From: Gammaproteobacteria bacterium | GTDB lineage: Bacteria; Pseudomonadota; Gammaproteobacteria; Pseudomonadales; Azotimanducaceae | Reading direction: 5' to 3' | Length of the DNA: 35,720 nucleotides | Assembly: GCA_018645845.1 (NCBI GenBank) | Contig: JABGVY010000040.1 | Coordinates: 1 to 35,720 of the forward strand | Shown: positions 22,390 to 24,900 of the stretch, one piece after another | Layout of the letters: each line of letters opens with the position of its first letter | Numbering within the stretch: the first letter of the stretch is position 1 | Translations under genes and position numbers: made by a program | The notes under the pieces: generated by a model | Database searches by the model: none | Told to the model about the DNA's origin: nothing | What the model saw: only the letters and a program-made list of their open reading frames with translations

Positions 22390-24900
22390 GTGGCAAACAA
22401 ACACCTCAAAGTTTTTGGCATGATTCCAGGCGTCGCCGTGATCGGTGGATTCGTTGTCACGAGCCTGTTATCCATCTTTATACTTCAATCAGGCATCAAT
22501 GCCTCACATCAGTCCAAGCTCAGCCAGGCATTAGCCGAAGAGATTGCACAACAGGTTAATATCAAAGAAACCCAACTCATCGAGCAACTGACTAAAATAG
22601 CAACTAGCGCTATGGTCACTAACGCGATTACCGGCACCATCGATGATTTATCGGCGGCAGAGTTGACTATCGCTCAGCTTCTACCCTTCGCTGAAAAAGT
22701 GCGGCTAATTCCTGCCGGCCAGGCCAGCATCGATCAGGGCTTCCCACCGTTTAATTATGTCGCGCTGGATATGGTCAAAGGTGTCGAAGCAGGAGAACGG
22801 TTTTCTCCCGAGGCAATCAGCTCTCAACCACAGCTCAAAGGTGAGAAATGGATCATCGTTGCTGCCCCAATCAAACGCGGTGATGGCAATATTCAGGGTA
22901 CGTTGTTTGTCTATTTCAACCCTCTGTCCATCAGCGCAAACCTAACCGATGGTACAAAGGGTGAGGTTCGGGTGACTCAGGCGGTGGGTGCTGCTGACGT
23001 GGCGATCGCGACTTCAGGTACACCCGGTACAGGGCCCGCCACAACGAGCGCACTGAATAACCCGCACTGGGCCCTACAATACTCACCATCGGCAGCAATA
23101 TCAGGTCACGCACCCGCTGGCTTTGCGACCTACCTGCTGCCGGGAATCGCAATGTTGTTGATTGCCCTAGGGGGCACAGCCTTTGGTGCAGCGCAGACAC
23201 GCACATTAATACAGCAGAATCTTATATTGATCGGAAACCAGATTAGTCGAGTAACCGGGGGCAACTACGACAACAACGTCAACTATACGTTACCAGGGTT
23301 TGCCTACCTGGACAGTAAACTGAAGAAGCTACGAGATTACCCCCCTGCACAGACCGACGAAAGCAAACCTACGTCAACAAAAATTCAGTCTAAAAAGACC
23401 CCTCCTTCCGAGAGCGCTGTCGCCGTCGATATCAAAATGTCTGATGATGATCCGTTTGTGGAGATCGAAGAATTTGAAGTAGACGATTTTGATTCAGTGG
23501 TTAAAGAGGCAAACAAACCAAGCAACCACCTTGCCTCGATTGAACATATTTTTCGAGCCTCTGACATTTGCGGAATCATCGGTAAATCAATAAACGAAGA
23601 CATTGCTCGCCAGATAGGGCGCGCCATCGGTTCCGAAGCTGGTAGCAGGGGCGAACAAAGTCTACTCGTCGGCTACGACGGCCGCGAGTATAGTCCGGCA
23701 CTGGCTGAAGCATTAATCGAAGGAATCGCTTCCAGTGGCAGGGACGTTTTGAATATCGGCTCAGTCCCGACTCCAGTTCTATATTATGCGACCAGTAACT
23801 CGGACACAAAAAGCGGCGTGATGGTTACGGGCAGCCACCACGCGCCTGATCGCAATGGGTTTAAGGTGGTCCTTGATGGCAAGAGTCTGGTTGATCATGA
23901 GATCAGCGCTCTTTTTAAGAGACTTCAGGAAAACAACTTCACTACAGGAAAAGGCAGTGTTTCTACAGCAGATTTCACGCAGACCTATATCGACGCCATA
24001 TCTTACGATGTGGTTGTGGCCCAGCCGCTGAAAGTTGTAATTGACTGCGGCAACGGTATTACCGGTGGTGTAGCCCCGGAACTACTTGATATCCTGGGTT
24101 GCGAGACCGTTCCAATGTACTGCGAGGTTGATGGCAGCTTCCCAAACCACCACCCAGACCCGACCCGACCTGAGAACCTGAAGGACCTTGTTGCAATGGT
24201 GCAGTCTCAGCACGCAGATCTTGGTATCGCGCTGGACGGGGACGGAAGTCGACTGGCGGCAGTCACAGCTGAAGGTCAGATAGTATGCCCTGACCGATTA
24301 CTCATGCTCTTCGCCAAGGATATTGTCTCACGTAACCCCGGCTCAGATGTGGTCTACGACGTTAAGTGCACGAGGCACCTTAATAGCATTGTTAGTGGCT
24401 TCGGCGGCCGGCCTATTATCTGCAGAAGTGGCCATTCTTTTGTTAAGCAGAAAATCGCTGACACGGATGCATTATTAGGCGGAGAACTGTCGGGCGGCAT
24501 TTGTTTCTCTGATCGATGGTTTGGCTTTGACGATGGCCTATACTCTGCTGCGCGCCTGCTTGAAATCGTTGGATCTCAAGGAGATAGCCTCGATGACCTC
24601 TTGGCAAATTTTCCAGCCAGCGTCGCTACGCCAGAGATTCATGTGGCAGTAAAAGACAGTGAGAAGTTTTCGCTGATAAAAACCGTGGTTGAAACCGCCG
24701 ATTTTGAAGATGTAACGCTCACCACAATTGACGGATTGAGGGTAGATTTTGCGGATGGGTGGGGATTGGTCAGAGCCTCAAATACAGAACCGGCGTTGAC
24801 CCTTCGGTTCGAAGCAGACTCTGACGAATCTCTGGAAAATATAAAAAACGCCTTTCGGGAGTTACTCCGGGAAGTAAAATCAGATCTGAACTTTGAGTAA
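22390..24900 (+). CDS. algC: Membrane-anchored AlgC-family phosphohexomutase homologue with altered active site
   Basis: An 836-residue protein with GTG start at 22390. Residues 1-270 form a two-helix membrane module: helices near 11-33 and 243-266 flank a periplasmic loop. An acidic linker follows ([20 protein letters not shown]), then a four-domain phosphohexomutase fold from about residue 381. That fold aligns to remembered P. aeruginosa AlgC with a constant +374 offset. Retained are phosphoserine S482 (Ser108), K492 (Lys118), D616 and D618 (Asp242, 244), R621 (Arg247), E699 and S701, and R795-S797-T799. Changed are Tyr17 to S391, Arg20 to C394, Asn110 to H484, Asp246 to S620 and His329 to G703. 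AlgC normally interconverts mannose and glucose phosphates for surface polysaccharides. Activity here is doubtful or altered; the symbol marks orthology by position only. Confidence 0.9.

Follow-up and report, generated by a model that had tools for sequence, protein, structure and literature searches.

The window, by which we mean the whole stretch of DNA that was analysed, comprises 35,720 nucleotides of a gammaproteobacterium of the Azotimanducaceae (assembly GCA_018645845.1, contig JABGVY010000040.1) and carries an algC-type gene in the order coaBC–dut–algC–argB–slmA, dut and argB being presumably the neighbours of algC in Pseudomonas as well. The 836-residue product is predicted to comprise a helix with a first transmembrane segment, a periplasmic sensor, a second transmembrane helix, a disordered linker and a phosphomannomutase/phosphoglucomutase (PMM/PGM) domain, the transmembrane segments being putative and judged by eye from hydrophobic sequence. 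Comparison with Pseudomonas aeruginosa AlgC shows that the mutase domain has exchanged active-site residues that are essentially fixed in homologues, and its fold is predicted to be retained.

The window protein has the four-domain PGM_PMM I–IV architecture of the PMM/PGM (AlgC) group of the alpha-D-phosphohexomutase superfamily, with Pfam PGM_PMM_I to IV matched at residues 387–824. Like P. aeruginosa AlgC in all four domains, it aligns with that enzyme (PMM/PGM; 1k35, 4il8) without a gap over 448 residues (phmmer, residues 386–833 with 12–459), which bears out the constant numbering offset of 374 proposed in a sequence-only reading of the window. The full-length AlphaFold model (mean predicted local distance difference test score, pLDDT, 83.2; predicted template-modelling score, pTM, 0.57) supports, as a prediction, the further claim of an intact fold: the mutase domain superimposes on the P. 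aeruginosa PMM/PGM chains listed with TM-scores by target of 0.91–0.97, the top match of the whole model being the H329A mutant 4il8. The NCBIfam model PgmG (NF046027) scores the protein at 438.5 bits against a cut-off of 600, a cut-off that does not discriminate here since intact homologues also fall below it (480.4 in genome G013 and 508.6 in the Pseudomonas locus L079). Phage-borne relatives of the mutase (82 records) are all below 60% identity, and the best among the matches listed are other mutases.

All six substitutions named in the sequence-only reading (Y17S, R20C, N110H, P111A, D246S and H329G in AlgC numbering) are present in the window protein, as are the residues it described as kept: Ser482, Lys492 (AlgC K118), Arg621 (R247) and the phosphate loop, which reads R795-(A)-S-N-T; the counterparts of E325 and S327 are kept as well (Table 1). 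Two of the three metal-binding aspartates of the PMM/PGM group, D242 and D244, are thus retained, and the third is a serine. The catalytic serine S108 is likewise in place, but the acid/base residues of the group are incomplete: H329 has become glycine, which from either histidine codon (CAC or CAT) to GGC takes at least two base changes, and cysteine has taken the place of R20, which corresponds to Arg23, proposed as the general acid of PGM1 (PMC7761743). Having lost its third metal ligand, the residue that corresponds to the candidate general base and the conserved first-loop arginine, the domain should, to judge from its residues, no longer be competent for phosphoryl transfer.

Table 1. 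Positions in the window of the algC-type gene, its predicted parts, its changed and kept active-site residues and its neighbours.
Feature	Position	Strand	Remarks
algC-type gene	22390..24900	+	open reading frame of 836 amino acids, GTG start
Predicted periplasmic CACHE-type sensor domain, residues 32-243	22483..23118	+	AlphaFold model, Foldseek, VIA-align
Long helix, residues 245-289, putative second transmembrane segment	23122..23256	+	secondary structure of the model
Disordered linker, residues 317-379	23338..23526	+	pLDDT below 50
PMM/PGM domain, residues 386-833	23545..24888	+	Pfam PGM_PMM_I to IV, phmmer, structure match
Ser391, replacing AlgC Tyr17	23560..23562	+	codon TCT
Cys394, replacing AlgC Arg20	23569..23571	+	codon TGC
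Ser482, phosphoserine position, kept	23833..23835	+	
His484-Ala485, replacing AlgC Asn110-Pro111	23839..23844	+	codons CAC, GCG
Ser620, replacing the third metal ligand, AlgC Asp246	24247..24249	+	codon AGT
Gly703, replacing AlgC His329, counterpart of the candidate general base	24496..24498	+	codon GGC; role from PMC6443537
Arg795-Ala-Ser-Asn-Thr799, phosphate-anchoring loop, kept	24772..24786	+	
dut, upstream neighbour	21925..22380	+	
argB, downstream neighbour	24906..25820	+	

We compared these positions across 105 AlgC-type mutase domains, made up of 25 loci (L009–L033) and the best 80 of 586 confirmed contig matches; removal of two duplicates (L067 of L012 and L070 of L019) and of the nine sequences from the window's own genus left 94 outgroups, which were assumed to be active enzymes. 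The AlgC residue is found in every outgroup at Y17, R20, H109, D246, E325 and H329 (94/94 each) and in 93/94 at N110. The claim that the changed columns are ligand or catalytic positions rather than freely variable ones therefore holds for Y17, R20, N110, D246 and H329, all of which AlgC has and the window protein has lost. It does not extend to P111, and P111A carries little weight because only 87/94 outgroups have proline there. Five of the six substitutions in the window protein fall in columns that are essentially fixed.

The losses are concentrated in the active site. Our near-invariant set consists of 78 columns conserved in at least 98% of the outgroups, 18 of which belong to an active-site list taken from PMC6443537 (phosphoserine, metal, sugar and phosphate loops together with Tyr9, His303, His324 and Arg280 of the Xanthomonas enzyme), to which R20 was added and whose positions we mapped to AlgC numbering ourselves, by motif. 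In the window protein alone, 5/5 changed near-invariant columns lie in this list (P=4e-4), as do 7/7 over the four genomes G000 (the window's own), G001, G004 and G014 (P=1.2e-5) and 4/4 when G000 is left out (P=0.002). The hypergeometric test takes columns as exchangeable. The active-site lists were compiled after the changes were known, which makes these P values a little too favourable. When the active loops serve as the list, the four genomes give 6/6 at 100% conservation (P=0.003) and 7/7 at 98% (P=2e-4).

As a control, leaving out each of the 94 outgroups in turn yielded 59 departures at columns of this kind, with one in a list of 19 catalytic positions, two in the active loops and three in the paper-derived list. 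The enrichment is weaker in G014 alone (P=0.05), and G002 and G016, taken singly, show no active-site enrichment among their changed near-invariant columns; over all nine genus sequences, 7/11 changed columns are in the active-site list (P=0.002). The loss is selective for active-site residues beyond chance, in line with the sequence-only view that it is not scattered.

The half of the protein that precedes the mutase is predicted to be a sensor. A model of residues 1–330 (mean pLDDT 83.4, pTM 0.62) begins with a long helix, continues with a mixed alpha/beta domain and ends in another long helix, and Foldseek retrieved, after a whole chemoreceptor model at rank 1, the sensor domains of KinD, LuxQ, CqsR, PctA and DctB. 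VIA-align placed the KinD sensor 4jgp first (Z 14.8, root-mean-square deviation 3.9 Å over 188 residues), followed at Z 12–13 by ligand-binding domains from numerous chemoreceptors and histidine kinases. We take these matched domains to be of the CACHE type, partly from their entry titles, and residues 32–243 are accordingly modelled as a CACHE-type periplasmic sensor. Of four proteins scanned with Pfam, two match dCache_1, both below its cut-off, and the window protein is not one of the two. Among homologous loci (the best 80 of 586), 44/80 carry 300 or more in-frame residues ahead of the mutase domain, 34 carry fewer than 100, and two are cut by a contig end; an extension of this size corresponds to the predicted transmembrane sensor half at 22390–23379 of the window.

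Among 17 genomes of the genus, the window's included, the same locus is found in graded states. A tree of dut, argB and coaBC groups G000, G001, G004, G011, G009 and G014 (bootstrap 100), and none of these six clade genomes has an intact AlgC: in four the active site has lost residues, in one the gene is broken and in one it is deleted. At near-invariant columns, the four read Y17S R20C N110H D246S H329G (G000), Y17S D246N (G001), Y17S D246N E325G (G004) and Y17C H109S (G014). The sequence-only reading had proposed looking for the same changes in close relatives; Y17S and a residue other than Asp at 246 are indeed shared with G001 and G004, whereas R20C, N110H and H329G are confined to G000. 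The codons at position 246 (GAT in G014, AAT in G001 and G004, AGT in G000) form a stepwise path, and the frame is intact over 836–837 codons in three further genomes.

In G011, whose flanks are about 90% identical to the window, a broken-frame algC remnant lies between dut and argB (L039, 4349–4842), with internal deletions and pieces corresponding approximately to residues 1–51, 110–172 and 758–836. In G009, dut and argB are separated by a short gap whose end resembles, by eye, the 3' end of algC, as a deletion scar would. Over the genus, algC is absent or broken in 8/17 genomes. None of the catalytic positions is changed in G013, G008 and G010, with P111A present in G008. Two further genomes show changes of their own: G016 (L013) has D18G, at a position of the first active-site loop that adjoins R20 and is Asp in 94/94 outgroups, and G002 (L021/L176) has Y17N and P111G, shows no match to the N-terminal half and is perhaps another lineage losing its active site.

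Selection was assessed with our own codon model of the GY94 type, with branch lengths taken from the 417 non-loop codons of the mutase domain. The nine-genome topology was fixed before the tree of the neighbouring genes was made; the two agree within the clade, but G008 and G010 are not grouped in the latter, at weakly supported nodes. Background branches are saturated, one of them at its bound, and the background values are accordingly rough (0.041 and 0.056 for the same codons). For the 19 catalytic codons, the ratio of nonsynonymous to synonymous rates (dN/dS) is 0.30 within the clade and 0.004 outside it (twice the log-likelihood difference, 2ΔlnL, 45.2), compared with 0.113 and 0.041 for the non-loop mutase domain (2ΔlnL 39.7). 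On the G000 branch, the catalytic codons reach 0.66, not different from 1 (2ΔlnL 0.92), and 53 equally conserved non-loop codons stand at 0. These 53 codons show no amino-acid change in the four genomes (2ΔlnL 216.6 against a dN/dS of 1), and a single dN/dS shared by catalytic and control codons is rejected both on G000 (2ΔlnL 14.7) and on all clade branches (2ΔlnL 30.7). Taken singly, the G001/G004 and G014 branches have catalytic values (0.22 and 0.27) that do not differ significantly from the rest of the domain.

The remainder of the protein is constrained to different degrees along the tree. In the non-loop mutase domain, dN/dS is 0.19 on G000, 0.23 on G001/G004 with their stem, 0.10 on the stem of the three and 0.044 on G014, with a background of 0.056, and neutrality is rejected on G000 (2ΔlnL 27.4) and G001/G004 (2ΔlnL 13.9). 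The corresponding values for the N-terminal half are 0.225, 0.335, 0.147 and 0.223, with a background of 0.160, and neutrality is again rejected (2ΔlnL 23.1 on G000 and 9.8 on G001/G004). Between G000 and G001, pairwise dN/dS is 0.154 for the mutase domain, 0.066 for dut, 0.047 for argB, 0.152 for coaBC and 0.148 for a 59-codon part of slmA. At the codon level, these differences in constraint point to selection that still acts on fold and sensor and no longer on the chemistry. Invariant residues have been lost from a domain whose predicted fold is retained, which is one of the marks of a pseudoenzyme.

A second mutase in the genome had been anticipated on the strength of these losses, and two more PGM_PMM proteins are present: contig C168 encodes a CpsG-like protein, and C15 a GlmM that is truncated where the contig ends. 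The C168 protein (L044, 5046–6443) has intact phosphoserine and metal motifs, Gly in place of Tyr17 and SKT in place of SNT; the last two features are common to all five genus members compared and possibly mark a distinct mutase subfamily. A second type resembles CpsG more closely. Its motifs are intact in G001, G011, G009, G014, G013 and G006, and in G004 it is present as a contig-end fragment; its G011 representative scores 626.5 bits against the CpsG model, below the cut-off of 801. This type was not found in the G000 assembly, a draft of 591 contigs that is 76% complete and in which absences are weak evidence. The alpha-PGM model NF005737 has matches in 16/17 genomes, none over the cut-off.

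Enzymes that draw on AlgC products are unevenly distributed. The bifunctional GMP/PMI (TIGR01479) is found in 0/4 genomes with an eroded AlgC (G000, G001, G004, G014) and in 9/13 others; GalU scores above its cut-off in 0/4 and 8/13, respectively, and sub-threshold matches to it occur in all 17 genomes. For RmlA, G014 passes the cut-off, G004 has a fragment that scores below it, and none was found at E 1e-20 in G000 and G001. This distribution would fit a loss of demand, and we do not rely on it because the genomes are incomplete, polysaccharide islands are expected to bin badly, and G011 and G009 have lost algC yet have GalU. ManC and GalU adjoin each other in several genus members (L165, L166; contigs C11 of G013 and C1 of G011), and neither passes its cut-off in the four genomes whose AlgC is eroded.

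We propose, at a probability of roughly 55%, that the mutase domain of the window protein is a pseudoenzyme that forms the output of a membrane sensor and is retained for something other than catalysis. In this membrane-anchored protein, a transmembrane helix and a flexible linker would connect a CACHE-type periplasmic sensor to a phosphohexomutase domain of the AlgC type. The sequence-only reading had suggested a regulatory or sugar-phosphate-sensing role; it did not notice the predicted sensor in residues 1–330, which alters what a retained role might be. Catalysis would no longer be needed in the clade, most likely because other mutases of the CpsG family are present, and since it would have become dispensable, the residues for phosphoryl transfer and for holding the metal would have been free to change. 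Selection would meanwhile still act on the protein, which keeps its phosphoserine position and phosphate-anchoring loop and, as predicted, its fold and sensor, and the domain would most likely act as a non-catalytic output that binds a partner protein or a sugar phosphate. We infer the loss of activity, the reason why catalysis could be dispensed with and the retained role, all three, alongside a sensor fold that is predicted. As a more tentative extension, which we consider less likely than not, AlgC fused in this way may be a transmembrane receptor with a mutase output that always had a signalling or scaffolding job besides catalysis, so that the clade would have dropped the catalysis and kept the receptor.

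Several observations weigh against a pseudoenzyme with a retained role. Two of the six clade members, G011 and G009, have lost the gene, and any role kept elsewhere is therefore dispensable; outside the clade, dut adjoins argB without algC in G003, G005, G006, G007, G012 and G015. On the G000 and G001/G004 branches, the non-loop mutase domain evolves with a dN/dS three to four times its background; the sensor half, at 0.335 on the G001/G004 branches, stands at twice its own. Looser cut-offs weaken the enrichment: with the active-loop list, the four genomes give 7/11 at 95% (P=0.002) and 8/19 at 90% (P=0.009), and all nine genus sequences give 10/39 at 90% (P=0.14). Some activity may persist in the G014 enzyme, which differs at listed positions by Y17C and H109S, and mutation of the histidine matching H109 in the P. 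aeruginosa enzyme is reported not to abolish activity (PMC7761743). A specific preservation of phosphate binding is not supported, as the difference between chemistry residues (6/11 changed) and sugar/phosphate anchors (1/8 changed) is not significant (P=0.15).

The strongest competitor is a gene on its way to loss, in which catalysis has become superfluous, the active site has eroded first, the remaining constraint is a memory of recent function and deletion follows, as in G011 and G009. That no clade member has an intact AlgC and that two of the six have a broken or deleted gene agrees with such a course, as do the dN/dS values outside the loops of 0.19 (G000) and 0.23 (G001/G004), which exceed the background of 0.056. 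Undirected decay should, however, also strike conserved structural columns, and 0/53 are changed in the four genomes; the frame, moreover, has stayed open in three further genomes. Position 246 is occupied by a residue other than Asp on both sides of the split between G000 and G001+G004 (Ser and Asn, respectively), so that the aspartate was probably lost earlier, yet neutrality is rejected on the later branches. The timing of the loss of activity is itself a reconstruction, and values of 0.19–0.23 that reject neutrality may have a recent loss mixed into them. We judge a dying gene unlikely, and to be taken seriously.

It is less probable still that the fold is kept only because a misfolded membrane protein would be harmful when expressed, the protein having no positive function. 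Harm of this kind would also produce frozen core columns and free active-site columns. A useless and costly protein would nevertheless be expected to be lost, as has happened in two of the six clade members, and the constraint on the sensor half along the G000 branch (0.225 against a background of 0.160) is left unexplained, though neither point is strong.

A mutase or phosphatase of changed specificity, one of the options of the sequence-only reading, accounts for the phosphoserine, K118, R247, E325, S327 and phosphate loop kept in the window protein and is nonetheless very improbable: the protein lacks both the third metal ligand and the residue matching the candidate general base, catalytic codons are near-neutral on the G000 branch, and the sister proteins change different catalytic residues (E325G in G004, H109S in G014), which looks like lost constraint. 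An assembly or binning artefact, conceivable in a draft of 591 contigs and 76% completeness with two relatives at 8–9% contamination, can be practically dismissed, since two separate assemblies share Y17S and carry D246N, a one-base intermediate between Asp and Ser codons, and the dut and argB flanks keep their order around an intact frame.

Superfamily members without mutase activity are already known in eukaryotes, namely PGM5 and parafusin (PMC7761743). In that paper, vertebrate PGM5 (aciculin) is described as having the phosphohexomutase fold without mutase activity and is thought to be structural, and parafusin (pp63) of Paramecium is described as a phosphoglucomutase homologue that serves as a signalling scaffold. 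In PGM5, the phosphoserine, the metal site and the ability to bind substrate are preserved, whereas the window protein lacks one metal ligand and the candidate general base; it also differs from the vertebrate protein in its bacterial origin and its fusion to a predicted membrane sensor. Parafusin, unlike the window protein, is a eukaryotic PGM1-like protein (1kfi is among the structure matches). Parafusin is not known to have a membrane sensor, and GlmM, which is a working enzyme, is not known to be fused to one.

GlmM is reported to inhibit the diadenylate cyclase CdaA/DacA (PMC8573169, PMC6368335), such that a phosphohexomutase controls a membrane-linked partner by binding. Its action on CdaA is a precedent for a mutase-shaped output that would act by binding, as proposed here (PMC8573169). 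KinD, DctB and PctA carry CACHE-type sensors with the fold predicted for residues 32–243; in the window protein, the cytoplasmic part is a phosphohexomutase domain and not the kinase, cyclase or chemotaxis domain that accompanies such sensors. Literature searches, limited to openly licensed papers and hence weak, found neither a bacterial pseudo-AlgC nor any discussion of an AlgC sensor half.

If the more tentative receptor reading is correct, the window protein would be a pseudo-mutase with a signalling function in bacteria, linking a periplasmic ligand to the metabolism of polysaccharides or of the membrane. The 44/80 loci with an extension of this size also point to a predicted sensor half in many AlgC proteins. 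Pseudoenzymes are usually seen long after catalysis has been lost; here, one genus presents at one locus a range from the intact gene through partial and heavy erosion to breakage and deletion, and the conserved genes on either side serve as a control. This series makes it testable whether the loss of catalysis precedes a non-catalytic role or only deletion, and it provides a natural record of how an enzyme may turn non-catalytic or disappear.

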